Of a stretch of 64,000 bases of DNA, positions 7,193 to 55,440 are shown one piece after another. The translations under genes were made by a program, and so were the position numbers. The DNA is from Clostridium saccharobutylicum DSM 13864 (GTDB lineage: Bacteria > Bacillota > Clostridia > Clostridiales > Clostridiaceae), in NCBI RefSeq assembly GCF_000473995.1, contig NC_022571.1, forward strand, positions 1,700,501 to 1,764,500. Direction: 5' to 3'. Numbering within the stretch: the first letter of the stretch is position 1; each line of letters starts with the position of its first letter. Below the pieces are notes generated by a model, which saw only the letters and a program-made list of their open reading frames with translations, did no database searches and was not told where the DNA came from.

Positions 7193-7342
7193 TTAGGCAC
7201 ATGAAAAGAAATAATAGACCAAATATGCTACGTATATTTTAATCAAACAAGAAAGTTAGTTATGCTTATAGCAAGCTTATTACGATAACTTGATGATTTA
7301 AAATAGGCGAGTATATTGGTCTATTATTTTTTGATTAAACTT
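7193..7342. repeat. family-1 inverted-repeat element (subfamily with AATAATAGACCA arms)
   Basis: It begins TTAGGCACATGAAAAGAAAT, continues into AATAATAGACC and ends with GGTCTATTATTTTTTGATTA. The inside has further dyads around TTATAGCAAGCTTATTACG. Its termini match the other family-1 copies; its inner arms resemble the copy at 51700-51862. Confidence 0.75.
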
Positions 7343-7415
7343 AACTATATGGTTAAAATATAATTAATAATATTAGTACATAGTATTAATTATAGCTAAA
7401 AGGGGAGAAGTATAA

Positions 7416-8198
7416 ATGAGAATAATGACATTTAATTTAAGGTGTGATTTTCCTTTGGATTTTGGTAACAGGTGGAATTCTAGAAAAGAAATGATTTATA
7501 ATATAATGAAAAATTATAATTGTGATATTATTGGAATTCAAGAATGTACAAATAAGATGTTTAAGGATATACAAGATAATATTGATAATTATAATATTGT
7601 TGGTAGCCCTAGAAGCAAAAGATTCTTTGTAGAGAAAAATGATATTTTAGTTCTAAAAAAACATTTTATAAAGGAGAATAGAACTTTTTGGTTGTCAGAT
7701 AATCCTGATAAAATTGGGACTATGAAATGGTATTCACTTTTTCCACGAATTTGTACAACTGCAATTGTGAAACTTGAAAATAACCAGACAATTAGAGTAT
7801 TTAATTCTCATTTAGATTGTCTTTTACCTCAGGCACGAGAATATGGATTAAGGAAGATAATGCAAACTATAACTGAAGATGAAAAAAAGGAACAACTTCC
7901 TATAATATTAATGGGAGATTTTAATGCTACTCCAAATAGTAAATTGATAAAAGATTTTTCACAAGGTAAATTTTCAAATAAAAGATTAGTTGCAGTTCAA
8001 GATATTAATAAAGAACTATATAATCACGGAACAATGGGGAATTTCAAAGGAAAAGAAAATGGAGTTCATATTGATTATATATTTGTATCAGAAGAAATAG
8101 AGATAATAAATGCAGAAATAGTAAAATATAATGTTGATGGAAAATATCCTTCAGATCATTACCCTTTGATAGCAGATGTTAAAATAAAATCCTTTTAA
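7416..8198 (+). CDS. endonuclease/exonuclease/phosphatase family protein
   Basis: A 260-aa protein of the EEP superfamily (DNase I/exonuclease III/sphingomyelinase fold). The metal-binding and catalytic signatures appear in order: MTFNLRCD at the N-terminus, DIIGIQECT near 43, LMGDFNATPNS near 167, HIDYIFVS near 220 and the terminal YPSDHYPL. There is no signal peptide, so it should be cytoplasmic. It may act on a phosphodiester or phosphomonoester; EEP members differ too much to name the substrate. It differs from the exonuclease III at 35403-36161. It is a single gene, preceded by AGGGGAG. Confidence 0.85.
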   Translation: MRIMTFNLRCDFPLDFGNRWNSRKEMIYNIMKNYNCDIIGIQECTNKMFKDIQDNIDNYNIVGSPRSKRFFVEKNDILVLKKHFIKENRTFWLSDNPDKIGTMKWYSLFPRICTTAIVKLENNQTIRVFNSHLDCLLPQAREYGLRKIMQTITEDEKKEQLPIILMGDFNATPNSKLIKDFSQGKFSNKRLVAVQDINKELYNHGTMGNFKGKENGVHIDYIFVSEEIEIINAEIVKYNVDGKYPSDHYPLIADVKIKSF

Positions 8199-8311
8199 AG
8201 GATTAAATTATGTAATATAATAAAAAATAATGTCATATTTCCATATTATATCATGATTAGTGAATTTTTTATATTGAGATAAATCGAAAAGAAATTGAAG
8301 GGAATGATTTA

Positions 8312-9049
8312 TTGTCGAGACTGGAGAAATATGTATGTGCATTGTACATATGTATAGCAATTGTATTGGGGGGATTTGCAGCTTACTTTAAAGTTACATG
8401 GATTGATGTTAATTCCAATACTTTAATGGCTGGTAAGCAAGAGGGTAGTTCTTCTAGCAATTATTATAAAAAACATGGACAAGTAATTAATACTAGTACT
8501 AATTTGTGCATTAGACAAGAACCAAATTCAGAAAGCAATATAGGTGATTATTTATATAATGGAATGATTTTCGATATTTTAGATAAAAGCGATAATTGGT
8601 ATAAAATAAAATATGAAAATGTTACTGGATACGTGAATTCAGAATATGTAGAGGAATATGATCAAGAGCCTCCACATCCAATATATAGTGATATACAGGA
8701 TAATCCAATATTCAAAAATACTTTGAAAGTTCCAAAACCAATTAAGGTAGAATTAACAGCTTACTGCAATTGTAGTATATGTTCAGAGGCATGGGGAGCG
8801 GAAACTGCAATGCAAACACATACTAGAGTTGGAGTTATCGCAGCACCTAAAGAAATACCATTAAAAAGTAAAATATATATTCCTGAGTTAAAAGATTATA
8901 AAGATGATTGTATTTTTGATGTAGAAGATAGAGGCGGAGCTGTAGTTTTAAAAGATGATGGAACTTATATAATAGATGTTTGGTTACCGTCTCATGATCA
9001 GGTTATTGCTTTTGGAAGAAAAAAAGCAACTGTTTATTTAATACAATAA
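8312..9049 (+). CDS. membrane-anchored SH3b + 3D domain cell-wall protein
   Basis: A 245-aa exported protein: an N-terminal membrane segment (residues 7-25), an SH3b domain (about 55-115, LCIRQEPNSESNIGDYL...GYVNSEYVEE) and a C-terminal 3D domain (about 145-245). The 3D domain shows its conserved acidic residues in FDVEDRGGA and YIIDVWLP. 3D domains have the double-psi beta-barrel of MltA-like lytic transglycosylases and occur in resuscitation or peptidoglycan-remodelling proteins such as YocH and YuiC. The start is TTG, after AAGGGA. A paralogue of the 3D domain follows at 9387. Confidence 0.85.
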   Translation: MSRLEKYVCALYICIAIVLGGFAAYFKVTWIDVNSNTLMAGKQEGSSSSNYYKKHGQVINTSTNLCIRQEPNSESNIGDYLYNGMIFDILDKSDNWYKIKYENVTGYVNSEYVEEYDQEPPHPIYSDIQDNPIFKNTLKVPKPIKVELTAYCNCSICSEAWGAETAMQTHTRVGVIAAPKEIPLKSKIYIPELKDYKDDCIFDVEDRGGAVVLKDDGTYIIDVWLPSHDQVIAFGRKKATVYLIQ

Positions 9050-9076
9050 TTGAAGTATAAATATTTTAGTTTAATG

Positions 9077-9132
9077 TAAATGAAAGAAAATAATTTTGAC
9101 ATATGGACTTGTTATTTTTTTGATTGCACCTA
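9077..9132. repeat. family-1 element remnant
   Basis: The sequence GGACTTGTTATTTTTTTGAT followed by TGCACCTA matches the right end of family-1 elements, and AAATGAAAGAAAATAA recalls the left end. It is short, so probably a deletion derivative. The rest of the 9050-9386 gap has a TTCCC/GGGAA dyad at 9178-9192 and an imperfect GTGACTTTAA/TTAAAGTTAC repeat just upstream of the next gene. Confidence 0.5.
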
Positions 9133-9386
9133 GTCACTGAATTAAGATTTTTTCAAGTATTTTTTTCTGTTAATTTATTCCCTGGCCGGGAAAAGTATGT
9201 TAAGAAATTCATATATAAAATCATAAAAATTATCCATAATTTAAATTTTATACATAAGTAGAAAAGAATGACTTTGAAATAAAATAATTAATACTCTATA
9301 ATTGGTTTTACCCCATAGGAAATTAAGGTGACTTTAAATATACATCATATATTAAAGTTACTGAAAAAGAACTAGGAGTGATTTTT

Positions 9387-9983
9387 ATGATGAGAGTAAA
9401 GAAAAATATGTTTAAGGTATGTGCTATTTTAGGCATATTTTTAGCATTAATTAAAGTACAAAATTTCAAGGTTGAATCTAACGATATTCAAAACCAAGAG
9501 TTATTATTAGGAAATTTAAAAAAGAATTCAGAGGATCAAGATAGTCTGGAGACTGCGGATAAAGAAAATCTTGAAAGTATAGATACATCTACTGAAAAGG
9601 AGATTTCTAAAAATATAGCTACATCTATTAAAAGTGAAGGTAGTGTTTCAGATAATAATAATTCACGCAAATCAATTAAAGTAGAATTGACTGCTTATTC
9701 AAATGATAAGAGATGTTCAGATAATTGGAATTCACAAACTGCTATGGGAACAGAAACTAGAGTAGGAGTTGTGGCAGCACCTAAGAATATTCCGCTTGGG
9801 AGTAAGTTATATATTCCAGAACTTAAAAATTATAAAGAAGATGGTATATTTGATGTTGAAGATAGAGGTGGAGCTATCAAGATGAAGAAAGATGGAACAT
9901 ATATAATAGATGTTTGGATGCCTACTTATGAAGAGGCAGTACAGTTTGGAAGAAAAACAACTACGGTATACATAGCTGCTTAA
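9387..9983 (+). CDS. 3D-domain protein, exported
   Basis: A 198-aa protein with an uncleaved anchor or signal segment (about residues 7-24), a low-complexity Glu/Ser/Asn linker (30-90) and a C-terminal 3D domain (about 95-198, with FDVEDRGGA and YIIDVWMP). The 3D domain closely resembles that of the preceding gene, but the SH3b domain is absent and the CNCS cysteine cluster is reduced to a single Cys, so the pair looks like a diverged tandem duplication. The ATG at 9387 is chosen because AGGAG lies 8 nt upstream; the GTG at 9378 overlaps that site. Likely a peptidoglycan-modifying protein; activity is not established. Confidence 0.85.
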   Translation: MMRVKKNMFKVCAILGIFLALIKVQNFKVESNDIQNQELLLGNLKKNSEDQDSLETADKENLESIDTSTEKEISKNIATSIKSEGSVSDNNNSRKSIKVELTAYSNDKRCSDNWNSQTAMGTETRVGVVAAPKNIPLGSKLYIPELKNYKEDGIFDVEDRGGAIKMKKDGTYIIDVWMPTYEEAVQFGRKTTTVYIAA

Positions 9984-10024
9984 TTTAGAATGTATATTAT
10001 TTTTGTTCATATAATTAGAATAAA

Positions 10025-10058
10025 ATCCTCAAGAACATGTATGTTCAGAGGATTTTTT
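10025..10058 (+). terminator. intrinsic terminator
   Basis: ATCCTC pairs with GAGGAT, and the inner GAACAT pairs with ATGTTC; a run of six T follows. It ends the 3D-domain transcript. Confidence 0.85.
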
Positions 10059-10061
10059 GTT

Positions 10062-10100
10062 TTAATCACATGAAAATAAATAACAAGTTCAAAGTTGATA
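10062..10100. repeat. family-1 element left-end remnant
   Basis: AATCACATGAAAATAAATAA followed by CAAGTTCAAAG matches the left end of family-1 elements; no matching right end is seen before the nitroreductase gene. Confidence 0.5.
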
Positions 10101-10154
10101 ATAACACTATTTAATAACAAGTAAAAAATGCTAAAATAATAATGAGGTGATGAA

Positions 10155-10721
10155 ATGATTAAAGAACTTATATTAAAAAATAGATCATATAGAAGATTTT
10201 ATGAAGATAAAACTATTAAAATGGAGACTTTAAGGGAATTAGTTAATTTAGCGAGACTATCACCTTCGGGTCGTAATATACAAGGGTTAAGATATGTTTT
10301 ATCAAATACTAAAGAACAAAATGATAAAATATTTGAAAATGTATTTTGGGCAGGATACTATAAAGATTGGGCAGGCCCAGAAGAAGGAGAAAAGCCAAGT
10401 GCTTATATAGTAATAGTAAAAGATATAACTCTTGGTGCAATAGCACAACAGGATGAAGGAATTTCAGCTCAAAGTATTTTGCTTGGAGCAGTTGAACAGG
10501 GGTTAGGAGGATGCATAATAGGAAATATAAATAGAAAAGATTTAACTAAATCACTTAATTTAGCACATAAATATGAAATTGCTATTGTATTAGCGTTAGG
10601 CTATCCTAAGGAAGAAGTTGTGATTGAAGATATGGATGATAATGGTGATTTTAAATATTGGAGAGATGAAAATAAAGTTCACCATGTACCAAAAAGAAGT
10701 TTAGATGATCTAATATTATAA
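10155..10721 (+). CDS. nitroreductase family protein
   Basis: A 188-aa FMN-dependent nitroreductase-fold protein. The N-terminus KNRSYRRFYEDKTIKMETL and the FMN-contact segment ARLSPSGRNIQGLRYVL are typical, as is GCIIGNINRKDL toward the C-terminus. Such proteins reduce nitro groups, quinones or flavins with NAD(P)H; the natural substrate is unknown. The ATG at 10155 has AGGTGAT upstream. It is monocistronic, ending in a terminator at about 10765. Confidence 0.87.
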   Translation: MIKELILKNRSYRRFYEDKTIKMETLRELVNLARLSPSGRNIQGLRYVLSNTKEQNDKIFENVFWAGYYKDWAGPEEGEKPSAYIVIVKDITLGAIAQQDEGISAQSILLGAVEQGLGGCIIGNINRKDLTKSLNLAHKYEIAIVLALGYPKEEVVIEDMDDNGDFKYWRDENKVHHVPKRSLDDLIL

Positions 10722-10764
10722 ATGGCAAAGCTTAAATGAGCTTATATACGTAATTATTAAATAA

Positions 10765-10798
10765 AAACATAGAGGAATAACAGTCTCTGTGTTTTTTT
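10765..10798 (+). terminator. intrinsic terminator
   Basis: AAACATAGAG pairs with CTCTGTGTTT, followed by seven T. The following 10799-11049 gap is A+T-rich with no gene or clear regulatory site. Confidence 0.85.
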
Positions 10799-11049
10799 AA
10801 AATTATAAATAATAGGATAGATATAAGAAGAATCTTTTTCTTTGTGTGATAAAAAATAATCATGGAATTTTGGATTTGTTAATTTCTTTCAAGTGTGTAA
10901 TTAAGATAATTTACTTTTAAATATTATTAATATATACTTTAGTTGTAAACAAAAACATTAATGTGTAAAAACATATTAAAATAATAAACAAATTTACATA
11001 TATAAAGCTATGTATGTATTCAATATTAAATATTAAGGAGAATTTACAT

Positions 11050-16913: not shown

Positions 16914-16934
16914 TTAGGTACATGAAAATAAACA
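16914..16934. repeat. family-1 left-end remnant
   Basis: TTAGGTACATGAAAATAAAC resembles the left end of family-1 elements and sits right before the ribosome binding site of the PAP2 gene. Confidence 0.4.
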
Positions 16935-17492: not shown

Positions 17493-17902
17493 TTAAATAA
17501 GTAGAAAAATTATATCTATAGTGTTTCTCGTTGAGAATTTAATATATCACAAATAGAGAAGTTAGATAATACATATTTGTTTCATAGGTCCATGGAACAA
17601 ATATGTATCTAATGTCGGTTGGAATTCACATAAGCTATACTCTCATTGCATAACATATATGCAAGTTAAATACATGTAATATTTTAACTTGCTATTTTTA
17701 TTTAAAAAAGACTATTCGAGAAATATTTTGTTGCAATATGAGTAATTTTAAATATAAGAAATAATTTACAAAATTCAAATATATGGTAATATATTATGTG
17801 GGATAAATATGAGAATTTAATTTATAAAGTTTTTTAAACTTTATAAAAGATAAGAATATCAAAAGACATAAACAAGGGTAGCGTTTAAAAGGAGGATAAA
17901 AT
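17493..17902. other. 410-bp intergenic region with decayed hairpins
   Basis: No gene is seen. ACATATTTGTTTCATAGG and GGAACAAATATGTATC form a long hairpin at 17567-17616, flanked by TATCTATAG and by TGTCGGTTGG that recall family-2 elements. At 17821-17847 a TTTATAAAGTTT/AAACTTTATAAA dyad could be an operator or RNA hairpin for the next gene. Confidence 0.5.
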
Positions 17903-22654: not shown

Positions 22655-22703
22655 TTAGGTACATGAAAATAAATAATAAGTTTAAATTTTTGAATGTGCC
22701 TTA
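22655..22703. repeat. family-1 minimal copy (internal deletion)
   Basis: TTAGGTACATGAAAATAAAT and the terminal GAATGTGCCTTA are almost joined, leaving a 49-bp remnant. The rest of 22704-23071 is A+T-rich; a GAATAATAG...CTAATTATTC dyad lies just upstream of the next gene. Confidence 0.6.
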
Positions 22704-25281: not shown

Positions 25282-25442
25282 AAGGCGCAATCAAATAAAT
25301 AGCAAGTCTATTTGCCAGCCTATTTTCAATCATTCTTCTTCGGTAAATTGACCTAATAGCCAGCTATAAGGACAATTTTCATCCTTGCCTGATGAAAAAT
25401 ATCCATGGCAACTTTGGAATTGTTATTTATTTTCATGTGCTA
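25282..25442. repeat. family-1 element, full length (subfamily A)
   Basis: It begins AAGGCGCAATCAAATAAAT and ends TTATTTATTTTCATGTGCT, about 160 bp. The inside (TTCTTCGGTAAATTGACC, GGACAATTTTC, CCTTGCCTGATGAAAAATA) matches the reverse complement of the copy at 36954-37117 over its whole length. Confidence 0.85.
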
Positions 25443-28016: not shown

Positions 28017-28088
28017 TTAGGCACAATCAAATAAATAACAAGTCCATTTGCCAGCCTACTTTGGACTTGTTATTTATTTTCATGTGTG
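28017..28088. repeat. family-1 element, internally deleted (subfamily A)
   Basis: A 72-bp copy: AGGCACAATCAAATAAAT on the left, TATTTATTTTCATGTG on the right, with TTTGCCAGCCTA in the middle as in the full copy at 25282-25442. The interior between TTTGCCAGCCTA and CTTTGGA is missing, as if excised at the hairpin. Confidence 0.85.
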
Positions 28089-30100: not shown

Positions 30101-30269
30101 ACGGGCATATTAAACAAAATAACAAGTCAAAGATGCAACGTATATTTTGTGTAAGACGAGGAATCAATGTTAGTTCATAGCTGTTTTTGCTATTAGCTAA
30201 TATTGATGACGAAGTATTACACAAAATAGACTAACATACTGACTTGTTATTTATTTTAATATGACTTAT
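30101..30269. repeat. family-1 element, diverged
   Basis: The ends read AAACAAAATAACAAGTC and GACTTGTTATTTATTTTAAT. The inside has GTATATTTTGTGTAA paired with TTACACAAAATA and a TAGCTG...TAGCTA loop. Lies upstream of the sigma operon, toward the Cys-rich gene. Confidence 0.75.
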
Positions 30270-36953: not shown

Positions 36954-37117
36954 TTAGGCACATGAAAATAAATAACGAGTTCAAAGTTGCCATGAATATT
37001 TTTCATCAGGCAAGGAGGAAAATTGACCTCATAGTGAGCTATTAGGTCAATTTTCCGAAGAAAGATGATGGAAAATAGGCAGGCAAATACACTTGTTATT
37101 TATTTGATTGTGCCTTA
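36954..37117. repeat. family-1 element, full length (subfamily A)
   Basis: TTAGGCACATGAAAATAAAT on the left and TTATTTATTTGATTGTGCC on the right, about 164 bp. The inside matches the copy at 25282-25442 in reverse complement, including the AAAATTGACCTCATAG / CTATTAGGTCAATTTT inner hairpin. Confidence 0.9.
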
Positions 37118-38833: not shown

Positions 38834-38918
38834 TTAAGTCATATAAAAAAATAACAAGTTCATCTGCTAGCATATTTTCATGTTAGATTGGACTTGCTAT
38901 TTTCTTTCATTTGACTAA
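38834..38918. repeat. family-1 element, short copy
   Basis: AAAAAAATAACAAGTTC on the left and GGACTTGCTATTTTCTTTCA on the right, 85 bp, with ATATTTTCATGTTAGA inside. Confidence 0.75.
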
Positions 38919-40751: not shown

Positions 40752-40774
40752 AACACATTAAAAAAATAATATAT

Positions 40775-40821
40775 CAATCTCGCAGAATATTTGAAATTGC
40801 TATTTTCTTTCATGTGCCTAA
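40775..40821. repeat. family-1 right-end remnant
   Basis: TTGCTATTTTCTTTCATGTG followed by CCTAA is the right end of a family-1 element; only AAATAATATATCAATCTCGC resembling a left arm precedes it. Confidence 0.55.
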
Positions 40822-40937: not shown

Positions 40938-41342
40938 ATGTCAGATAGTTGCAGCAGTTCTGATTCTTCTTTTGAAGAAAGTGACAAATATAATCAAAAT
41001 TGTAATAGAATAATAAATCATAATCATGAATTTTTATCAAGCACAGATTATGCAAGAGATGATAATGGGGATGTTCATAATCATAGAATTGCAGGTGTAA
41101 CAAGTCCACCAATTAGATATCGTGAATCTCATATTCATATAGTAGAGGTTCTCACTGATACTTTTGATGATCATTTTCATGTTATCCGTTATACTACAGG
41201 TAGGGCGATTAATCTTCCAGGTGGAAAGCATATCCATTTAGTAAGAGGTGTAACAAGCCGTAATGATGGACATCAGCATAATTTTTATTTTACAACATTA
41301 ATTGAAAATCCTTCTAGCGTACCAGAAGGCAGAAGATGTTAG
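40938..41342 (+). CDS. YmaF family His-rich protein
   Basis: A 134-aa protein with six H-x-H pairs, spaced about every 15-20 residues (NHNHEF, DVHNHRI, SHIHIVE, DHFHVI, KHIHLV, GHQHNF) between short strands. This is the YmaF family pattern. The N-terminus is Ser-rich (SDSCSSSDSSFEESD). The evenly spaced His pairs suggest metal binding, though the family has no proven function. The TAG stop is formed by the first bases of the adjoining family-1 element, so insertion may have trimmed or replaced the original C-terminus. AAGGAGG precedes the ATG. Confidence 0.8.
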   Translation: MSDSCSSSDSSFEESDKYNQNCNRIINHNHEFLSSTDYARDDNGDVHNHRIAGVTSPPIRYRESHIHIVEVLTDTFDDHFHVIRYTTGRAINLPGGKHIHLVRGVTSRNDGHQHNFYFTTLIENPSSVPEGRRC

Positions 41343-41404
41343 GCACATGAAAATAAATAACAAGTCCAATTTGTTGTGAATCGCTTACTTAGTGAGCGTA
41401 TGTG

Positions 41405-42925
41405 CAATGTCGTCAACTTAGTAAAATAGTAATGAAAAAATTACTACAAATTTCGAATAGCGTATGCTATATTTCTTAAAAAATGGTATAATTAATAAAC
41501 CTACTGGCAAAAGTAGGATTTTGGAAATATTTAGTTTTTACAAACTTATATGCAAGATTTCCTTTGAGAATGATGCTTTTTCCATGGGTGCTTGTTTTTT
41601 CGCTCACAATTACGGTTTGGACGTATTTGTGAGCGTATTTTTTTAGCTTTTTCTAATATATGTTCTAATATTCTTTTTCCTGAAATAGGCTTTACCATCA
41701 TAACTATTATCTTCTTCAAAACGTCACATAATATAAAATTTCTATTTGCTTGATATTCTGATTTTAAATTTTTATCTTTATTTTTATTTGCTATTGCAGC
41801 GTCGGCATCTTTCTTTATAAGTGCTGCAACCATAGATATATAAATAGATGCATAAAAATCTTGTTCAATTGCAATTGGCTTAGTTCCAGAAAATTCTTCT
41901 ATTTCAATACTACTTTTAAGTTCTTTATATTTGCATTCAACTCCCCATCTAAGAAAATACAATTCTTTAAATTGATTAGGAGTAATAATTTCATCAAATA
42001 TATTAGTTACTAATATTTCTGTGGTGTCAGCAGAAAGTTTTATTTTTATAACTCTTACTTTTTTCAATTCTCCTTTTGATTTATATTCAAAAATACAATC
42101 TTCAGAAGAAATAGATTGTATTATCTTAAATGAAGATGATATTCTCATTAAGAAAAATAAATTTCTATCGTTTAAATAATCAAACATATCATAAGAAGGA
42201 TAGCCCCTATCAAAAATTACAATGCTATTATTGAGTAATTTTTCATTATTAAGTGTATTTATATGTTGTTTGGCCATTTCTCTTTCACTAGTTCTAAATT
42301 TAGTTACAGACGCATCAATTATTATATCATTTAATACATCATATAAGGCTGACGCCGACGCAATAGCAGTTTGTACTTTATTTTGATTTTTACTTAATCC
42401 AAAATATTCACCACATTCAATTGTATCAGGAACTTGCAAAGAGGTTCCATCGACAGCAAGAACATTAAATCCATTCCACTTTTTTAAATTGTTTGTTGAG
42501 CTATAAAAAGAATCAACAAATAATCTGCATAATTCTTTAAATGCTTCAGGGGAAATATTTTGTCTTGCTTTAGAAAATGCTTGTTTTGATATACAAGGAA
42601 AATCTAAATATGTATGCTCTTCAATGAAATTACTTATTTCTGTAGCCATAGATTTTCGTAATGCGGAGCAAATAAAATGTACTGCATTAGAAAAAGATAA
42701 TTTTCTTTTTCTTGAAAATGAATTACCTAAGCTATACGCTTCTTTAAACTCATTGGAAATAATTAATTTATTTGTTTTCTTTAAAATTTGGGATAATAAT
42801 TTAATATTTTTCATAAAATCAAACCTCGCTATAAATTTAATATCTATAATGAGGCTTCATTTTTTCTAATTATTGTCAAGTGTTTTTTTATTAATTTTAT
42901 ATATTTCTTTAAGTTGACGACATTG
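41405..42925 (-). mobile_element. IS4-family insertion sequence, 1521 bp
   Basis: Inverted ends CAATGTCGTCAACTTA (41405-41420) and its complement (42910-42925) bound the element. A 10-bp direct repeat AGCGTATGTG flanks it on both sides (41395-41404 and 42926-42935). It carries one intact transposase gene on the minus strand. Size, ends, transposase motifs and a 10-bp duplication fit the IS4 family. The perfect duplication and intact gene suggest recent movement. Confidence 0.95.
41546..42814 (-). CDS. IS4 family transposase
   Basis: A 422-aa DDE transposase. The first Asp lies in LAVDGTSLQVP near 122, the second in IVIFDRGYPSYDMF near 200, and the Glu in the IS4 signature YFLRWGVECKYKELK near 288, which satisfies Y-x2-R-x3-E-x6-K exactly. 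The C-terminus is Lys/His/Arg-rich. The frame is intact with an ATG at 42814 and GCGAGG upstream, so it may be active. Confidence 0.95.
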   Translation of the reverse strand: MKNIKLLSQILKKTNKLIISNEFKEAYSLGNSFSRKRKLSFSNAVHFICSALRKSMATEISNFIEEHTYLDFPCISKQAFSKARQNISPEAFKELCRLFVDSFYSSTNNLKKWNGFNVLAVDGTSLQVPDTIECGEYFGLSKNQNKVQTAIASASALYDVLNDIIIDASVTKFRTSEREMAKQHINTLNNEKLLNNSIVIFDRGYPSYDMFDYLNDRNLFFLMRISSSFKIIQSISSEDCIFEYKSKGELKKVRVIKIKLSADTTEILVTNIFDEIITPNQFKELYFLRWGVECKYKELKSSIEIEEFSGTKPIAIEQDFYASIYISMVAALIKKDADAAIANKNKDKNLKSEYQANRNFILCDVLKKIIVMMVKPISGKRILEHILEKAKKIRSQIRPNRNCERKNKHPWKKHHSQRKSCI

Positions 42926-43133
42926 AGCGTATGTGAGTCGAGCTTCCTCTGATGAAAAATAGGCCAGCAAATGGAATTGTTGTTTTTTGAATGTACTTTA
43001 AAGTTTATATAGAATAATCGCATCTTATTTTAATATGAGGTGCGGTTAAATATATGATAATATACATTTGTATTTTATATTAGATTAGTTTAAATTTATA
43101 ATATAATAATTAAGTTAGCAAAAGGATGATTTT

Positions 43134-45308
43134 ATGAAGAAAACAATAGGTGTACTAGCTCATGTTGATGCGGGTAAAACTACATTTTCAGAACAGGTAC
43201 TTTATCATACAAATAGTATAAGGAGCAGAGGAAGGGTAGATCATAAGGATGCTTTTCTAGACAGTCATAGCATTGAGAGAAAAAGAGGCATTACAGTGTT
43301 CTCTGATCAGGCTGTTTTTAAATTTAGTGATTCTACATATTATTTAATCGATACACCTGGCCATGTAGATTTTTCTACTGAAATGGAAAGGTCCATTGGA
43401 ATTATGGATTATGCAATAATAATTATAAGTGCTGTAGAAGGAGTACAAGGGCATACGAAGACTGTATGGAGATTACTTGAAAAATATAAAATTCCAACAT
43501 TCTTTTTTATAAATAAATTAGATAGAGTTGGAGCAGATAAGGATAAAGTAATTGAGGAAATAAAAAAGAATTTAACTAAGGATATATGTTATATTGATAA
43601 AAGTTCTATAAAGTTTAAAGCTGATAAAGAATTTAATTATGAGAGTAAAGTTAATAATAGTAATACTCAAAATGTACAAAATAATTATTTAGATTTAAAT
43701 GATGAAATCATTGAATTTATAAGCGAATATGATGAAGTACTTTTAGAAAAATATTTGGATGGAGAATATGATGAAAAGCTATGGAAAAATGTATTTAGAA
43801 ATTTGATAAAGGAAAATAAGGTTTTTCCATGCTTTGCAGGATCTGCACTTCAAGATGAAGGAATATTAGAATTTATATATGGATTAGATGAATTAACATT
43901 TACAAATTATGAGGATTTAAACATAGCGGATTGTAATGATAATAGTAGTTTAATGCCTATGTTTAGAGATAATATTTTAAATACTACTAATAAATTTGCT
44001 GGATATGTTTATAAGGTTCGTCATGAAGCAACTGGAAATAGAATAACATTTATAAAGTGCTTAAAAGGAGAATTAAAGGTTAGGGATGAAATTATCCATG
44101 GAGGTGAAATAAAAGCTAATAATTATTCAAATGAAATGGAGAAAAGTGATAACAGCAAATTACAATTAAGTTTTGAATATGGGAATGAAATTAAGGAAAA
44201 AGTGAGTAGTATAAGAATTTATAATGGAAATAAATTTAAAGCAGTTGATAATGTAAAAGCAGGGGATGTGTTTGGAGTTACAGGATTAACAAATGTTTTA
44301 CCTGGTGAAGGAATTGGAGAGCTAAGATTAAAAACAAATTATGAAATGGTTCCTACGTTAATGTCTAAAGTTATTTTTGATGCTTTCTATAATATAAAAG
44401 AAGTTTTAGGATATTTTAAACTTTTAGAAGCAGAAGATCCAGCATTAAATGTAATATGGAGTGAAGCTATTCAAGAAATGCATGTACATATAATGGGGAA
44501 AATTCAATTGGAGGTTCTTAAAGAAATTGTTGAAGAGAGATTCAATTTAAGCGTTGAGTTTGGGCCTTGTGAAATTCTCTATAAAGAGAGCATTTTAGAA
44601 ACAGCTATAGGAAGTGGTCATTTTGAGCCATTAAGACATTATGCAGAAGTGCATTTAAAGATTGAGCCTTTACCAAGAAATAGTGGAATTATTTTTGATA
44701 ATAAATGTCATTCGGATCATTTGACTATTGGAAATCAAAATTTAATTAAAACACATATTTTTGAAAGAGAACATCATGGAATTTTAACAGGATCTCCATT
44801 AACTGATATAAAAATAACTCTTTTAACAGGCCGTGCTCATTTAAAGCATACTTCTGGTGGAGATTTTAGAGAAGCAACATTTAGAGCGTTAAGACAAGGT
44901 TTAGAAAAGGTGGAAAATATACTTTTAGAACCTTATTATAAGTTTACAATAGAAGTCGAACAAGATTTTATTGGAAGAGTATTAAGTGATATTCAAAAAA
45001 TGGATGGAACTTTTGATGCACCAGAAATTGCAAAAGATAAAATGATAGTAAATGGCCGTGGACCAGTTGCAAGATTTATGGATTATCCTATGGAAGTTAT
45101 TGCTTTTACTAAAGGTAAAGGACATATAAATTTAATTTATGATGGTTATGATAATTGTCATAATAGTGAAGAAGTAATTCAAAAAAGAGATTATAATAAA
45201 AATGCGGATATTGAATATACGTCAAGTTCAATTTTTTGTTCACATGGTCAAGGTTATATAGTAGAGTGGGATGAGGCAGACAAATCAATGCATTGTGAAT
45301 TAGAATAA
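43134..45308 (+). CDS. Tet(M)-like ribosomal protection family GTPase (divergent)
   Basis: A 724-aa EF-G-type GTPase. G1 is GVLAHVDAGKTTFSEQ, G2 lies in SIERKRGITVFS, G3 is DTPGHVDFSTEM and G4 NKLDRV. The start and overall layout follow Tet(M)/Tet(O)/Tet(W) rather than EF-G: a short start, domain II near 300-420, and domains III-V to the end. It is too divergent for me to claim tetracycline resistance; some clostridia carry chromosomal members of unknown role. An insert near 165-185 rich in Asn/Ser (ESKVNNSNTQNVQNNY) and another near 325 are unusual. AAAGGATG lies upstream. Confidence 0.85.
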   Translation: MKKTIGVLAHVDAGKTTFSEQVLYHTNSIRSRGRVDHKDAFLDSHSIERKRGITVFSDQAVFKFSDSTYYLIDTPGHVDFSTEMERSIGIMDYAIIIISAVEGVQGHTKTVWRLLEKYKIPTFFFINKLDRVGADKDKVIEEIKKNLTKDICYIDKSSIKFKADKEFNYESKVNNSNTQNVQNNYLDLNDEIIEFISEYDEVLLEKYLDGEYDEKLWKNVFRNLIKENKVFPCFAGSALQDEGILEFIYGLDELTFTNYEDLNIADCNDNSSLMPMFRDNILNTTNKFAGYVYKVRHEATGNRITFIKCLKGELKVRDEIIHGGEIKANNYSNEMEKSDNSKLQLSFEYGNEIKEKVSSIRIYNGNKFKAVDNVKAGDVFGVTGLTNVLPGEGIGELRLKTNYEMVPTLMSKVIFDAFYNIKEVLGYFKLLEAEDPALNVIWSEAIQEMHVHIMGKIQLEVLKEIVEERFNLSVEFGPCEILYKESILETAIGSGHFEPLRHYAEVHLKIEPLPRNSGIIFDNKCHSDHLTIGNQNLIKTHIFEREHHGILTGSPLTDIKITLLTGRAHLKHTSGGDFREATFRALRQGLEKVENILLEPYYKFTIEVEQDFIGRVLSDIQKMDGTFDAPEIAKDKMIVNGRGPVARFMDYPMEVIAFTKGKGHINLIYDGYDNCHNSEEVIQKRDYNKNADIEYTSSSIFCSHGQGYIVEWDEADKSMHCELE

Positions 45309-45363: not shown

Positions 45364-45417
45364 TAGGCATATTTAATAAAAAACGTTTTTTATAATTTAT
45401 TTATTTAAATATGCCTA
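45364..45417. terminator. bidirectional terminator
   Basis: TAGGCATATTTAA pairs with TTAAATATGCCTA around an A/T-rich loop (inner AAAAAACGTTTTTT), between convergent genes. Confidence 0.75.
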
Positions 45418-49323: not shown

Positions 49324-49334
49324 GGTGACATGAG

Positions 49335-49721: not shown

Positions 49722-49722
49722 A

Positions 49723-50294
49723 TATAGATAAACAACTTTTAACTTAGACTTATGTAATAGCTAACCGAAATAGAGATTATGCATTTGTTTCGGTTACTGA
49801 AAATTTTGATAGATGCTTCTAAGACTGCAAGTTGCACCCACAGTGCTTGCTTCACAAACATGTTGTGAGCAAGCACATGTGGAACAACTTACAATCTAAG
49901 AAGCATAGCTATCAAAATTTTTAAAGTAACACTACACAAATACATAACCTCTATTTCTACTTTGGGATATATATTCAAAGCATAAGTGTAATTCTTAAGT
50001 TGGATATATATATATACAGCTTAGAGTTTAGACTTAGGATGTAATTAGCTGAAAGAAGATATATTCTTTTTCTCGGTTGTTATATGATTGTGCTGCGGAT
50101 TCCTAGCAATAGAGGTTGTCACCAGTTATGAATACTCCTCAAACAAGTTAAGGACAAGCAAAAATTGAACAACTTTTATTGAAGAAATACCTATAGCCAT
50201 ATTCTAAATGCAATGCTCGCAAAAGAGTACCCTTAATTTATGCTTTGGAATATATTTTAAAGTTTAAATCTAGTTCGTAGTTTGTTTATCTATA
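49723..50294. repeat. family-2 composite inverted-repeat element
   Basis: TATAGATAAACAAC at the left end and GTTTGTTTATCTATA at the right end are inverted, spanning about 570 bp. Inside lie a long hairpin (49760-49965: AACCGAAATAGAG ... CTCTATTTC and TTGATAGATGCTTCTAA ... AAGAAGCATAGCTATCAA) and a second imperfect dyad (50056-50260). The left part resembles the copy at 51861-52180 (GAAATAGAGAT, TTTGTTTCGGTTACT). Confidence 0.75.
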
Positions 50295-50411: not shown

Positions 50412-50413
50412 TT

Positions 50414-50448: not shown

Positions 50449-50488
50449 AATGTCTAGGAAAGAAAAGAGTGCAAATTTCTTGTTTACT

Positions 50489-50538
50489 TATAATTTATGT
50501 AATAATATATGTTAAAATATATTATTACATAAATTATA
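50489..50538. repeat. perfect inverted repeat, 22-bp arms
   Basis: TATAATTTATGTAATAATAT and its complement flank a 6-base GTTAAA loop. All A/T-rich, so it could extrude or act as a protein site. Confidence 0.7.
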
Positions 50539-50599
50539 TAGGAATCCTCATTGCGGAACCCTATGTATGTATTCAATTTAACAATTAAATTTATAATTA

Positions 50600-50830
50600 G
50601 AATATGTTTCCATGCTAGAAATTCCATACATTTTTGTGAAACAGGCATTTGAAATTGAACTGTGAAGGTTCTTAGTACGAGGTTGTACCATTTTGGCTTG
50701 TCATAATTTTATATTAGGAGCATGCAAAAATGGGCACGCCCTTGTATTTAGAACCTTTCAGTGAAAATTTCATAGCCCTGTGGAACAAAAATGTATGGAG
50801 TTTTGGTTAACCGTCACTCAAGTTTGGATA
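50600..50830. repeat. family-2-like hairpin element
   Basis: ATTCCATACATTTTTGTG pairs with GGAACAAAAATGTATGGA, and GTGAAGGTTCT with AGAACCTTTCA; the centre is GTACCATTTTGGC...GCAAAAATGGGCAC. It ends next to the GTCACTCAAG before the metallopeptidase gene. It shares GAAGGTTCTTA with the copy at 3931. Confidence 0.65.
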
Positions 50831-50867
50831 TATAGCAAATCTGTATATTAATTTTAATGAGGTAAAT

Positions 50868-51698
50868 ATGAAAATTAGTTTTGAATATGAAAATAAAATT
50901 ATAGAATTTACTATTGTACGTAGTAAAAGAAAAACTTTAGGAATAAAGATAGATGAAAATTGTAAAATAATAGTAAGTGCTCCTTTTAGAGTATCAGAAG
51001 AAACTATAATAAAAGCAGTTAAAGATAAGGTTAGATGGATAGTTGAAAAGCAAGACGAAATACGTAAAAGGAACATAAAAAAGGTAGATAGAAAAGCTAT
51101 TGAAGGAAGTACATTTATGTATTTAGGTAAGGAGTATCCTTTACATTTGGTTTTTGACGGTATGAGAAAAAATATAATTGTAGAATTAAATAATGAGAAT
51201 TTTAATAAATCAAAGTCTAATAGATTATTTATAGATAAAACTTATATTACATCATCAATTAATACATTAGAAGAATGTAAAAATGTTTTTATAAGTAAAG
51301 AACAATTAGCAAATAAATTTATTATACATACTAATACAAGAGATGAAGAAAAAATAAAATTAGCATTAGAGAAATGGTATAGACAAAGAACTATGGAAAT
51401 TGTAAAGGAAAGGATACAATATTATACGGGAAATTTTAAAGATAAAGTAAGTGAGGTTAAAGTTAAGGAACAAAAACGGAGATGGGCAAGTTGTACAGGA
51501 AAAAATGAAATTCTATTTAATTGGAGGATTAGTATGGCTAGCCTTGATGTAATTGATTATATTGTAGTTCATGAAATGTGTCATATGGATCATAGAAATC
51601 ATTCGAGAGAGTTTTGGAATAGGGTAAAGGAAGTAATGCCAGATTATAAAGAAAAACATGAATGGCTTAAATTAAACGGAATGAATTTATATATATAG
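50868..51698 (+). CDS. YgjP/DUF45-type zinc metallopeptidase
   Basis: A 276-aa protein of the WLM/DUF45 (M48-like) family. The zinc motif is VVHEMCHMDHRNHSREFW near 228 (HExxH), preceded by the family motif KEQKRRWASCTG, and it starts SFEYENKIIEFTIVRSKRK. A stretch of about 60 residues (100-155, EECKNVFISKEQLANKF) is longer than in the short YgjP proteins I recall. Some members are linked to DNA repair or restriction, but nothing nearby supports that. The ATG has TGAGGTAA upstream. A family-1 element follows immediately. Confidence 0.85.
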   Translation: MKISFEYENKIIEFTIVRSKRKTLGIKIDENCKIIVSAPFRVSEETIIKAVKDKVRWIVEKQDEIRKRNIKKVDRKAIEGSTFMYLGKEYPLHLVFDGMRKNIIVELNNENFNKSKSNRLFIDKTYITSSINTLEECKNVFISKEQLANKFIIHTNTRDEEKIKLALEKWYRQRTMEIVKERIQYYTGNFKDKVSEVKVKEQKRRWASCTGKNEILFNWRISMASLDVIDYIVVHEMCHMDHRNHSREFWNRVKEVMPDYKEKHEWLKLNGMNLYI

Positions 51699-51699
51699 A

Positions 51700-51862
51700 T
51701 AAGGCACAATTAAAAAATAATAGACCAGTATGCTTACATATTTTGCGTCATACTGCGTCAGTAAGTTTTGCCAATAGGCTTGCTATTACCAAAACTTACT
51801 TCCTTGTCTGACACCAAATATGTATCGCATCTTTGGTCTATTACTTTCTTTCATGTGCCTAA
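51700..51862. repeat. family-1 element, full length (subfamily C)
   Basis: AAGGCACAATTAAAAAATAA on the left and TTACTTTCTTTCATGTGCC on the right, with inner AATAGACCA / TGGTCTATT and AGTAAGTTTTG / CAAAACTTACT arms. The arms match the 7193-7342 copy better than subfamily A. Confidence 0.85.
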
Positions 51863-52180
51863 ACAACTTATGCGATAGTTAATTGAAATAGAGATAGTGT
51901 ATTTGTTTCGGTTACTACTACTCAAAAGCATTAACTCTATTTCTAATTTTGAATATATATTTAAAACATAAGTGTTATTTATAATTAAAATATATATAAA
52001 TGTTTACTAAATTTAATGAGAGATTGTTCCATTATTGCTTGTCCTTAAATTGCTTAAGGAGTATTCAGTAATGGTGCAATGTCTCATTTAGAAACTTCTA
52101 GAGCTTTTATAGTCATGCGGAACAAAAATGTATTTGATTTCGGTAAAGTTACCACATGATTCTAAATTCTAAGTTGTTTA
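51861..52180. repeat. family-2 inverted-repeat element
   Basis: TAAACAACTTATG at the left and CTAAGTTGTTTA at the right, about 320 bp. Internal hairpins include GAAATAGAGAT...CTCTATTTC and GCACCATTACTGAATACT-type arms in ATTGTTCCATTATTGC / AGTAATGGTGCAAT. It overlaps the end of the family-1 copy by two bases, so the two are nested or adjacent insertions. Confidence 0.7.
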
Positions 52181-52184
52181 TTTA

Positions 52185-52982
52185 TTATTTCGTAACGTTT
52201 AAATTAGAATTATCAATATTTTTAATTTTTTTAATTGCAAGTACACAATAAATTAAAGCAATTATGTAGTATAATATGTAAAATTCAGGTATATCTATTT
52301 GCGCAACATTTAATAAAGCTTCTATTAATATTGATGAAGTCATTGCATAAAAGCTTAAGGTACAAGACTTTGAGTAATTTAATTTAAAGCCAATAATAGA
52401 ACTAATAATTAAGGTTCCAGGACCTAAAATTAAAAATACAGAAAATAAATTTTCTAAAAAAGAAAGCATAGGATCAATAAATAACAATGTTACATTATAC
52501 ATAAATTTAAAAACTGACAATGCTTCTCGAAATGTATTATTATTTGCACCTATGTTAGCAAAGTCACTAAATTTTAAAGTTTTTAGTGTATGATAGTTTT
52601 GTCTAAATGTTATAGAATTTGCATCTATGTATACACCATTGTTATATGGACTTAAAGCGGATAAAGTTGTTGCTCCACTTGTATCTACAATAAGAGTTTG
52701 ACCGTCATGTTTATAGTAAATAGGTTGAGTGGAATCTATAGATAATACACCATTTTCGAGAGTGAAATTTGGCGCTTCATTTATAAATTTTGCTTGCACT
52801 TTCGATATGTCAGAGTTAAATGAGCTCAGGGTAATAATATTAACTATAGTAGAAAATATTATAGTGACAAGAAAAATATAAAATATAGATTTACCAACTC
52901 CTTGTCTTAAAAATTCTTTATAGGCAGTAAGATTGAAAAAGCTATATGCCAGTTTATGCCTAAATCCCATTTTAGTTTCCAA
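52185..52982 (-). CDS. DUF1189 family membrane protein
   Basis: A 265-aa protein with one N-terminal helix (about 33-52), an extracytoplasmic beta-rich part (55-150, with YYKHDGQTLIVDTSG) and four C-terminal helices (155-250). This is the DUF1189 layout (formerly annotated YqhR/malE-like). Function unknown. It starts FRHKLAYSFFNLTAYKEF after GGAGG. Divergent from the queuosine operon. Confidence 0.88.
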   Translation of the reverse strand: METKMGFRHKLAYSFFNLTAYKEFLRQGVGKSIFYIFLVTIIFSTIVNIITLSSFNSDISKVQAKFINEAPNFTLENGVLSIDSTQPIYYKHDGQTLIVDTSGATTLSALSPYNNGVYIDANSITFRQNYHTLKTLKFSDFANIGANNNTFREALSVFKFMYNVTLLFIDPMLSFLENLFSVFLILGPGTLIISSIIGFKLNYSKSCTLSFYAMTSSILIEALLNVAQIDIPEFYILYYIIALIYCVLAIKKIKNIDNSNLNVTK

Positions 52983-53204
52983 AGAAAAACCTCCTCAAAT
53001 TTAATATATAATCAAACGATATTGCTAATTATAACATATTGTGTACAAATGGCAAATGGGGTTGAAATATGGCTAAAATAAATTTTGGATAATTTTAACT
53101 TTGATTTATTTAAGTTATAGAGTTATAATTATTTATTGTATTATGAATATATAAATTCAATTAAAATAGAATATTTGTAGATTTATATTTGAGTATAAAT
53201 CTTA

Positions 53205-53245
53205 GACAGTTCGTTAGACCATCCTGTCTCTAAATAAAACTAGGC
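53205..53245 (+). ncRNA. preQ1-I riboswitch
   Basis: A short hairpin GACAG (53205-53209) / CTGTC (53224-53228) encloses the loop TTCGTTAGACCATC, followed by the A-rich tail TCTAAATAAAACTAGG. The small stem with a pyrimidine/AG loop and an A-rich tail ending ACTAGG matches the preQ1-I H-type pseudoknot aptamer. It lies 30 nt before a terminator and about 185 bp before queD, so it fits the operon it should control. Confidence 0.88.
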
Positions 53246-53275
53246 AAAATTAAAGTTTAAATTGATTATGAATTT

Positions 53276-53328
53276 AAGGTTTATTTTATTATGATGGTGT
53301 AAATTGTGATAAAATAAACCTTTTTTGT
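53276..53328 (+). terminator. riboswitch-controlled terminator
   Basis: AAGGTTTATTTTAT pairs with ATAAAATAAACCTT, then six T. With preQ1 bound, the aptamer would favour this terminator and stop que transcription. Confidence 0.85.
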
Positions 53329-53430
53329 TTAAAATTTCAATATATAGATTATGATTCTATAAGTGTATTTTAGATATATAAAATAATGTAATATAAAAAT
53401 TAAAAATATATATAAATTAAGGGGAAAAAT

Positions 53431-53859
53431 ATGTTTAAGATAAAAAGTGAAATACAATTTGATACAGCACATTATTTAAGTGGATATAAAGGAAAATGTT
53501 CAAATATTCATGGGCATAGATATAGATTAATTGCTAAATTAAAATCAGAAACATTACATGAAGATGGTCAACTTAGAGGAATGGTAGATGATTTTTCAAA
53601 CTTTAAAGGTGCATTAAAAGAAATAGAAGAGATTTTTGATCATAAGTTAGTTATTGAAAATAATGATGAAGGAAAAGCTTTGGCTAGGAAATTAGAAGAT
53701 TTACCAAATAATTTTGATATCTATTTTGTGAATTATAGGCCAACAGCAGAAGAAATGTCTAGAGATATTTTTAATATGTTAAAAGCTAAGGGATTATCAG
53801 TATGTGAAGTCGAATTATTCGAAACACCTAATAATAGTTGTATATATACGGAAGACTAA
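53431..53859 (+). CDS. queD: 6-carboxytetrahydropterin synthase QueD
   Basis: A 142-aa enzyme of the PTPS fold converting 7,8-dihydroneopterin triphosphate to 6-carboxytetrahydropterin. The zinc His residues are in FDTAHYLSGY and NIHGHRY, the catalytic Cys is in GKCSNIHGH, and the catalytic His/Glu are in FDHKLV and VELFETPNN. First gene of the operon, behind the riboswitch. AAGGGG precedes the ATG. A 226-bp family-1 element separates it from queE. Confidence 0.93.
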   Translation: MFKIKSEIQFDTAHYLSGYKGKCSNIHGHRYRLIAKLKSETLHEDGQLRGMVDDFSNFKGALKEIEEIFDHKLVIENNDEGKALARKLEDLPNNFDIYFVNYRPTAEEMSRDIFNMLKAKGLSVCEVELFETPNNSCIYTED

Positions 53860-54085
53860 TTAGTCATATTCAAATAAATAACAGGTCTCTTTGTTAGTCT
53901 ATTTCCAATCAGAGGAAGCTTGACTCGCATTTGCTCACTGAGTAAGCAATTCACACAAAATCATTTTTATATGAGGTTAACTCATAAATGAGTTAACTAA
54001 GTTCAAGAAACCAAATCATAGATTTGGACTTTCACTTATCTGCTCATCGGAAAATTGAACTTGTTATTTATTTTCACGTGTCTTA
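53860..54085. repeat. family-1 element inside the queuosine operon (subfamily B, enlarged)
   Basis: It starts one base after the queD stop and ends 22 bp before queE. ATTCAAATAAATAACAGG on the left and ATTGAACTTGTTATTTATTT on the right. The first half matches the IS-interrupted copy at 41339; the second half has an extra 90 bp with GAGGTTAACTCATAAATG and CCAAATCATAGATTTGG dyads. Confidence 0.85.
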
Positions 54086-54107
54086 TTTGAATACTAGGAG
54101 GGGTAAA

Positions 54108-54776
54108 ATGTTTAATATAGTAGAAAAATTTTTATCAATAGATGGAGAAGGACCAACTTCGGGTGAAATTGCTACATTTATAAGATTTCAAGGATGCAAT
54201 TTAAGATGTTCTTGGTGTGATACAGTTTACTCATGGGGTAAAGAAAGTACTAATGAAAAATTGAGTGCTAATGAAATTTATCAATATATAAAAGAAAATG
54301 GGGCCACAAATGTTACTTTAACAGGTGGTGAGCCACTTATCCAGGAAAATATAGATGAACTATTAAATATTTTAAATAAAGATGAGAACTTAATGGTTCA
54401 TATAGAAACAAATGGCGCTGTAAACATAGGGGCATTTAAAGAGAAACATAAGGGTGGAAATATAAGTTATATAGTTGATTTTAAGCTTCCAAGTAGTAAT
54501 ATGACCAATTCAATGGATATGAATAATTTAAAGCTAGTTGAATCTAGTGATGTTTATAAATTTGTTGTGGGTAGCAGCGAAGACTTAAATATGGCATACG
54601 ATATAATAAAAAAATATGATTTAACTTCTAAATGTTTGGTTTATCTAAGTCCTGTTTGTGGAAATATAGAAATGAAAGATATTGTTGAATTTATGAAGGA
54701 GAAAAAATTAAATAAAGTTAGATTGCAAGTTCAACTTCATAAAGTTATTTGGGATAAGAGCGAAAGAGGGGTTTGA
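54108..54776 (+). CDS. queE: 7-carboxy-7-deazaguanine synthase QueE
   Basis: A 222-aa radical SAM enzyme forming CDG from 6-carboxytetrahydropterin. The N-terminus FNIVEKFLSIDGEGPTSGE and the cluster motif CNLRCSWCD (C-x3-C-x2-C) near 30 are typical, as is NVTLTGGEPLIQ near 68. The ATG at 54108 is chosen because AGGAGGGG lies upstream; the longer frame from 54024 begins inside the repeat element. Three bases separate it from folE. Confidence 0.94.
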   Translation: MFNIVEKFLSIDGEGPTSGEIATFIRFQGCNLRCSWCDTVYSWGKESTNEKLSANEIYQYIKENGATNVTLTGGEPLIQENIDELLNILNKDENLMVHIETNGAVNIGAFKEKHKGGNISYIVDFKLPSSNMTNSMDMNNLKLVESSDVYKFVVGSSEDLNMAYDIIKKYDLTSKCLVYLSPVCGNIEMKDIVEFMKEKKLNKVRLQVQLHKVIWDKSERGV

Positions 54777-54779
54777 TTA

Positions 54780-55373
54780 ATGAAAAAGAAAATTGATACT
54801 GAAAAGATTCAAGAATGTATAAAAGAGATATTGATTGCATTAGGTGATGACCCAAATAGAGAAGGATTGATAGATACGCCAAAGAGAGTTGCAAAGATGT
54901 ATGAAGAGGTTTTTGAAGGAATGACTCATTCAAATGAAGAAATAGCAGAAATGTTTGGAACAACATTTGAAGAAGAAGATTGTACTTCAGAAAATTATAA
55001 AAATATGGTAGTTGTAAAAGACATACCAATACATAGTTATTGTGAACATCATTTAGCACTTATGTACAATATGAAAGTTACAGTAATTTATAAGCCAAAA
55101 GATAAAATAATAGGTCTTAGTAAAATTGCGAGAATTGCGGATATGGTTGGAAGAAGGCTTCAACTTCAAGAGCGTATTGGTAAAGATATCGCAGAGATAG
55201 TATCTATGGTTACTGAAACAAAGGATGTAGGAGTTTTAATTACAGGAGAACATAGCTGTATGACATCAAGAGGAGTAAAAAAACCAGGAACATTGACTAC
55301 AACAACGACTTTTACTGGTGAGTTTGAAGAAAATGATTTATTAAGACAAGAAGCATTATTAATTATGAAATAA
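54780..55373 (+). CDS. folE: GTP cyclohydrolase I
   Basis: A 197-aa zinc enzyme making 7,8-dihydroneopterin triphosphate from GTP, the first step of both folate and queuosine synthesis. Zinc ligands are in [11 protein letters not shown] near 84 and [10 protein letters not shown] near 155; [11 protein letters not shown] is also typical. Its place within the que operon means it feeds QueD here. It follows queE by 3 bp with AGAGGGG. Confidence 0.96.
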
Positions 55374-55402
55374 AGATTAGATTAAAAAAATAAATTGTAG
55401 TC

Positions 55403-55440
55403 TTAGACACATAAACTTGTTATTTTTTGAATGTAACTTA
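55403..55440. repeat. family-1 minimal remnant between folE and queC
   Basis: TTAGACACATAA and ACTTGTTATTTTTTGAATG are the two ends with the interior deleted, 38 bp, inside the queuosine operon. Confidence 0.6.

Follow-up and report, generated by a model that had tools for sequence, protein, structure and literature searches.

A large MITE family with TTA/TAA target duplications and a conserved hairpin fold in Clostridium saccharobutylicum

Intergenic palindromes with shared ends occur throughout a 64-kb window of the C. saccharobutylicum genome

We analyzed a 64,000-nucleotide stretch of the single-contig genome of Clostridium saccharobutylicum NCP262 (= DSM 13864; 5,107,814 bp), positions 1,700,501-1,764,500, which is referred to as the window. 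The window carries many copies of a short, intergenic, imperfect palindrome that clearly belongs to a large, mobile family of miniature inverted-repeat transposable elements (MITEs). The copies are listed below with corrected boundaries. Scores in bits and E values refer to a covariance model of the family, paired triplets are the flanks on either side, and A, B and C designate interior types.

36957..37114, + strand: near-full core copy of type A, TTA/TTA; 158 bits, in the alignment of the model; folding energy -71.1 kcal/mol, z -12.8
25284..25441, - strand: near-full core copy of type A with decayed flanks CAA/AAA; 136 bits
51703..51859, - strand: near-full copy of type C (different apical stem), TAA/TAA; 138 bits, in the alignment of the model; folding energy -57.7 kcal/mol, z -10.5 on the + strand
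30104..30265, + strand: near-full copy resembling the forms of other genera, flanks ACG/TTA; 128 bits, in the alignment of the model
7196..7341, + strand: type C copy with a decayed right end; 58 bits
53863..54082, - strand: type B copy carrying additional hairpin sequence, TTA/TTA, immediately 3' of the stop codon of open reading frame (ORF) 53431-53859; site empty in relatives
41342..42997, + strand: type B copy interrupted by an IS4-type insertion, outer TTA/TTA retained
41405..42925, - strand: the IS4-type insertion sequence (IS) within that copy, identified by its ends and a 10-bp duplication AGCGTATGTG, with transposase ORF 41546-42814; not the mover of the family
28020..28088, - strand: internal-deletion form, TTA/TTA; model match and flanks
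38838..38915, - strand: internal-deletion form, TAA/TAA; model match and flanks
40752..40818, - strand: internal-deletion form, TAA/TAA; model match and flanks
22658..22700, + strand: 43-bp internal-deletion form, TTA/TTA; model match and flanks
55406..55437, + strand: 32-bp internal-deletion form, TTA/TTA; flanks, with a model match of only E 2
9075..9128, + strand: decayed short form; E 0.11
45366..45415, + strand: possible short form, newly listed; weak, E 0.09
10065..10095, + strand: single-end fragment; end motif
16917..16933, + strand: single-end fragment just 5' of a start codon; end motif
10870..10903, - strand: degenerate end fragment, newly listed; repeat comparison

The initial annotation had named about 14 sites. 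All are present, but those at 10062 and 16914 are single-end fragments and the copy at 9075 is decayed. A family copy also lies at its paired positions 41339 and 42926, where one element is split by the 1521-bp IS4-type insertion. The interior types A, B and C that it distinguished exist as well, but as variants of one shared hairpin architecture in which the apical stem is replaced in type C and hairpin cassettes are inserted in type B. With boundaries set by the model and by eye, identical TTA or TAA triplets flank nine of the 14 two-ended window copies. The copy at 53863 aligns poorly to the core (score 82.6).

The family has about 150 or more copies in the genome

The end motif GGCACATGAAAATAAAT was found 15 times in the window at up to three mismatches, compared to 0.82 expected matches and a maximum of 3 across 100 shuffles. 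In the whole genome GGCACANNNAAATAAATAACAAGTCC, a 26-base end pattern including three free positions, gave 192 + 208 = 400 end matches at the same tolerance while the reversed pattern gave none. The intergenic family with shared ends that was first noticed by eye is therefore real. We built a covariance model from 48 copies, including three window copies; it recovers the near-full copies of the window and matched all 150 scored genome candidates at E <= 0.001, one of them partial. Because only 150 of 8107 first-look candidates were scored, about 150 copies represents a floor for the genome.

The copies are imperfect palindromes without genes, mostly of about 159 bp, with the ends GGCACA...TGTGCC. 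The lengths of 141 copies, a set picked for matching flanks and used for lengths and interiors only, range from 50 to 359 bp with 89 copies measuring 157-160 bp. No gene was seen within copies except for inserted IS4-type elements. Type A copies from 30 loci could be aligned end to end. The terminal inverted repeats are about 26 bp long and carry a conserved internal mismatch, and the two ends are inexact inverted repeats of each other, with GGCACATGAAAATAAATAAC on the left and mostly GGCACAATCAAATAAATAAC or GGCACATTCAAA(T/A)AAATAAC on the right.

Target duplications and an empty orthologous site indicate mobility

Left and right ends were paired within 124 fetched sequences irrespective of the flanks. 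This yielded 136 pairs, 125 of them at most 400 bp long and 123 of these unique with enough flanking sequence. Identical 3-bp flanks are present in 102 of the 123 two-ended copies (TTA 52, TAA 49, CTA 1), compared to a shuffled mean of 51.3 and maximum of 67, and the middle base of the flanks is identical in 110. None of the other duplication lengths tried showed an excess among these copies. As TTA and TAA are mutual reverse complements, the flanks repeat directly and not in inverted orientation, which identifies them as a true target duplication.

The copy at 53863-54082 sits between ORF 53431-53859, which we take to be queD from gene order, and queE. We fetched 29 relative loci and examined 18 (L155-L172, leaving out L173-L183), in two of which (L158 and L159) the flanks were not placed. 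In all 16 relatives with both flanks placed the site is empty, the flanks lying 7-21 bases apart compared to about 250 in the window. Since the flanking genes are mostly 74-87% identical, this represents absence at a gene junction and not a base-exact empty allele. Next to the same junction in one relative (G012, L163), the distance from queE to the following gene, presumably folE, is 191 bases compared to 9 in L156 and 20 in L160; the insert is a different repeat that has AATTGACAATTG close to its start and contains one cassette shared with the family.

In many copies the outermost 8-12 bases at both ends and the TWA (TTA or TAA) flanks are kept while the middle is gone, down to a minimum of 32-34 bp. 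This fits deletion inside an inserted hairpin, and the suggestion that the copies at 28017, 22655 and 55403 had kept both ends and lost their middle is supported by these many short forms.

Overall, inverted ends, TWA duplications, one empty orthologous site, hundreds of end matches and a patchy occurrence bear out the MITE-like mobility proposed in the initial annotation. We assign a probability of about 0.8 to the reading that the intergenic hairpins are a gene-less MITE family moved in trans by a DDE transposase and inserting at TWA with a 3-bp duplication. The copies show insertion at TWA with duplication of 3 bp, which a transposase supplied in trans and cutting at both ends would carry out. 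Inserted copies would then decay, losing their middle by internal deletion as the short forms suggest. Comparison of the copies shows that successful lineages retain a defined hairpin with fixed unpaired loops, exchange the apical stem and acquire small hairpin cassettes at a few points. The fold would probably be retained for propagation rather than for neighboring genes.

Copies share a hairpin fold with conserved unpaired loops

Folded singly, 18 divergent copies mostly adopt one outline, from which decayed or cassette-bearing copies deviate. It consists of a terminal stem, a GA/GA step, a long AT-rich stem, short stems, an asymmetric loop with a left strand near ACAAGGA and a right strand near GACGCAGTATGA, and an apical stem. 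To an alignment of 48 copies chosen by us (14 divergent and 34 type A), we applied a common structure obtained as a weighted vote of single folds. Under this structure 88.5% of cells are paired compared to 81.0% in shuffled alignments and 38-45% in slid structures, 36 of 65 pairs are changed on both sides (23.8 shuffled, 14-23 slid), and cells with changes on both sides number 241 (73 shuffled, 27-54 slid). Each of five measures exceeded its value in all 500 shuffles, and sliding the structure by 1-3 columns gave far lower values; the structure is derived from folds of the same sequences, however, so the fit is flattered relative to the slid controls. RNAalifold gave a poor consensus for 59 type A copies (-15.9 kcal/mol, with 9 of 32 pairs changed on both sides).

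Conservation differs between parts of the hairpin. The consensus of the divergent set agrees with that of type A at 44 of 48 positions in the outer stems, 17 of 21 in the loop, 15 of 20 in the sub-loop stem and 13 of 28 in the apical stem. Within the terminal repeat, 33 of the 48 copies have GA opposite GA, as do 83 of 103 once the remaining core copies are included. G-T mismatches outnumber A-C mismatches 133 to 57 in the 48 copies; the counts are 29 and 15 for variants found in three or more copies, and 23 and 30 for variants in one or two. As the excess disappears among rare variants, the strand signal is weak. In 16 copies of the C. saccharobutylicum genome there are 37 G-T and 31 A-C mismatches at paired sites, which look decayed.

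The paired changes may have arisen by template switching within the palindrome, one arm being copied from the other, instead of by selection on the fold, an explanation that we take seriously while rating it somewhat below even odds. Template-switch correction is a known process in imperfect palindromes, the apical stem in which the arms lie closest is the most variable part, and related sequences alone can exceed every shuffle without structure. Template switching would, however, erase unpaired positions, yet the loop and the GA/GA step are maintained between and within the sets. The G-T excess also speaks against it, if weakly given the counts for rare and shared variants. The conserved unpaired loops thus argue against template switching as the whole cause, although it could yield part of the pairing pattern.

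With low confidence we propose that folding of one strand, as either RNA or single-stranded DNA, is needed for propagation. Stems would then vary as long as pairing is kept and the non-canonical loops (GA/GA and ACAAGGA / GACGCAGTATGA) would be fixed across genera, while the interior would capture hairpin cassettes that are also found in hairpin repeats with different ends.

Hairpin cassettes are inserted at three places of the core

The description of the interiors as swapped is right in spirit, but the copies share one conserved hairpin in which the apical stem can be replaced and cassettes can be inserted. In 27 of 33 copies of 185-300 bp extra sequence is located at three places relative to the core, the other six copies differing. 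About 41 bases are inserted at position 124 in 10 copies (58 in one), about 43 bases at position 36 in 5 copies, and about 51-71 bases in all near positions 102-109 in 16 copies; four copies bear two of the three insertions. The cassettes contain small hairpins. With four overlapping cassette probes, 6 of 42, 5 of 7, 9 of 15 and 6 of 32 matches had no family end within 330 bases, some of them being copies that are decayed or cut by a contig end. Judged by eye, at least two of these sites (L132 and L073) are hairpin repeats with different ends.

Other hairpin repeats are present in the same intergenic regions of the window, at 50120-50172 and 52024-52076 and also at 17580, 49748, 50768, 51866 and 52105. 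The L132 hairpin, whose ends are similar to those of these repeats, and the L073 hairpin both carry family-like cassettes as judged by eye.

The family is patchily distributed in clostridia and present in a phage sequence

Allowing up to two mismatches and counting the C. saccharobutylicum genome itself, ends are carried by 21 of the 68 genus members and, in the family, taken as Clostridiaceae, by 54 of 206 genomes in 14 of 46 genera. Carriers contain between 1 and 263 ends per genome and the reversed-end control gave no match in any genome of either set. Carriers named from exact matches (93 stretches) include C. beijerinckii HUN142, C. chromiireducens, C. uliginosum, C. neonatale, C. weizhouense, C. 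sartagoforme, Clostridium sp. LS and several metagenome-assembled genomes. Copies in other genera mostly have ...AAGTCA in place of ...AAGTCC and occur as forms of 62-67 and 157-159 bp.

One copy with TAA on both sides lies within a short phage or prophage ORF, in a sequence common to two viral contigs (L153, IMGVR_UViG_3300031261_000998, positions 3784-3942; second contig L152). A phage relative (L186) stops short of the insertion site and therefore provides no phage empty site. Of three further patterns searched in viral contigs, two gave no match and one returned the same two contigs, and a single type A copy queried against plasmid and phage record collections gave no match. By eye, the frame of the short ORF appears continuous across the element plus one TAA, for which no relative offers confirmation.

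The hairpins show no sign of a regular cis-acting role for the host

It is improbable that the hairpins are non-mobile, cis-acting RNA elements such as terminators, attenuators or regulators held by selection at each place. Their strong folding, the changes on both sides of pairs and their intergenic position, with 124 of 125 copies outside crude ORFs, are compatible with such elements. Against this stand the TWA duplications, the site that is empty in 16 relatives, and the occurrence of 400 end matches in this genome, whereas 152 of the 206 family members have none at up to two mismatches. For 105 classifiable copies the types of gaps between genes that they occupy are much like those of other gaps, and both orientations are used, with 17 copies along and 33 against co-directional genes, a weak difference. 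The decayed-looking paired sites in 16 copies of the genome are also unlike elements under such selection. No Rfam family matched in the window at gathering score, and in four loci with copies from other genera the three matches obtained were all below threshold and lay outside the copy. Overall, there is no sign of a regular cis role for the host.

An IS5/PIF-Harbinger-type enzyme is the leading candidate for the mover

Single-strand transposition, as in REP/RAYT or IS200/IS605 systems, was also considered for the family. REP/RAYT hairpins are likewise intergenic and moved in trans, and both the hairpin shape and a possible strand-specific structure of the clostridial copies are reminiscent of such systems. 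However, REP/RAYT elements are not known to have a 3-bp duplication, nor palindromes of either kind to make a target duplication, in contrast to the clostridial family with its 3-bp duplication and long inverted ends. The strand-linked insertion typical of such palindromes is not seen either, strand bias between genome halves being absent (33:33 and 46:38 of 150 copies, p 0.62, assuming an origin at base 1 and the terminus opposite), making movement of this kind very unlikely. The idea that the hairpins spread as RNA structures finds no support in the duplications or strand counts either, although the fold itself is conserved. That the resident IS4-type element moves the family is hardly credible: it has 8 copies in the same genome, one within a family member, but its ends CAATGTCGTCAACTT and duplications of about 10 bp are both unlike those of the family.

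The DDE transposase expected for the MITE reading is likeliest to be of the IS5/PIF-Harbinger type, given a TWA duplication together with ends of the form GG...CC, an assignment that we consider slightly better than even. TTA or TAA accounts for 101 of the 102 identical flanks, in line with the 3-bp TTA/TAA duplications and IS5-like transposase given for PIF/Harbinger elements (PMC2213677). Harbinger has been treated jointly with the IS5 family, with a canonical duplication of 3 bp (PMC12730594), and a three-nucleotide site is described as common in the IS1031 group of IS5 (PMC2516522).

Several observations weigh against a MITE family moved by such an enzyme. The empty site is neither base-exact nor strain-level, and a conserved fold is not required by ordinary MITEs. 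A transposase with matching ends, looked for as the initial annotation had advised, was not found in the loci checked. No transposase gene is flanked by family ends at 18 DDE_Tnp_1 loci of the C. saccharobutylicum genome or in 51 of 51 rows from six other high-copy genomes, several of them cut by contig ends. DDE_Tnp_4 and DUF4096 loci show no matching end pair around the gene, and neither domain has a match in C. saccharobutylicum, G012, G028 or G065. PF13359 is present in 1 and PF13340 in 4 of 67 genomes, with ends that do not match the family; DUF4096 is found in two of the high-copy genomes, G056 and G048, but with other ends. The 68 exact ends of G012 and 19 of C. saccharobutylicum had no partner transposase in the surrounding sequence, some stretches being only about 500 bases long, and their unpaired exact ends look truncated. 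About 50 loci or stretches from 20 low-hit genomes, representing a part of 57 matches, likewise contained no end-flanked transposase, and no transposase was seen by eye in the nine loci read among those where ends with matching TWA are spaced by 400-4000 bp (124 sequences). The partner search covers ends with up to 7-9 mismatches in 23 and extends to the loci described, not to whole-genome scans for long end pairs. The enzyme may have been lost from these genomes, may be rare, or may have ends that have diverged beyond the allowed mismatches.

A number of candidates were rejected. End pairs around genes at the DDE loci are only family copies interrupted by an IS, and the exact end of L377 adjoins an apparently ordinary transporter gene. 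In G012, the ends of two pairs spaced by 1.7 and 1.8 kb belong to distinct small copies, while a 1789-bp spacing in a repeated G012 transposase reflects chance similarity within coding sequence. The G056 transposase of L238, with an end 168 bases upstream, resembles another IS4-type insertion into a copy.

The IS4-type element of about 1520 bp (window 41405-42925; L125-L132) is present in 8 similar copies with duplications of about 10 bp, three of which (L126, L128 and L132) lie within hairpin repeats or cassettes as judged by eye. The L238 transposase of G056 is a different DDE enzyme that appears to be inside a family copy, and the start of such an insertion is likewise present in L110. These insertion sequences seem to favor hairpins.

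Two further features of the window are a 724-amino acid EF-G-like GTPase at 43134-45308 resembling ribosomal protection proteins, which scores 421.6 bits, well below the curated cut-off of 775, and three adjacent stretches at 57499, 58311 and 59025 with a common 72-base repeat (74-75% alike) close to where small ORFs begin.

Relation to known elements and implications

Tourist-like MITEs are gene-less, short and present in many copies, with ends starting GG like those of the clostridial family. These eukaryotic elements of the PIF/Harbinger superfamily, whose transposase is related to that of IS5, also share the 3-bp TTA/TAA duplication (PMC2213677). The clostridial family differs in being bacterial, in its conserved internal hairpin with fixed loops and hairpin cassettes, and in that no partner transposase was found. 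The bacterial IS1031 group has a three-nucleotide target in common with it (PMC2516522), whereas no IS5-type element with family ends was present in the loci checked.

ERIC, RUP, Correia and Nezha elements are short intergenic imperfect palindromes in many copies, with TA or unknown duplications. The clostridial family has different ends and duplications, a distinction drawn from general descriptions of these elements and not from sequence comparison. No title or abstract opening returned by the literature searches describes the family. What goes beyond ordinary MITEs is the conserved fold with fixed loops together with cassette exchange.

The family adds a very abundant mobile component to the genomes of solvent-producing clostridia, with a TTA/TAA target shared with eukaryotic Tourist-type MITEs. 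It offers a case for studying how palindromic repeats acquire and lose their interiors, and serves as a warning that covariation among intergenic hairpins of one family does not necessarily indicate a regulatory RNA. Its conserved fold and cassette exchange provide a test case for selection on single-strand shape in a DNA transposon.

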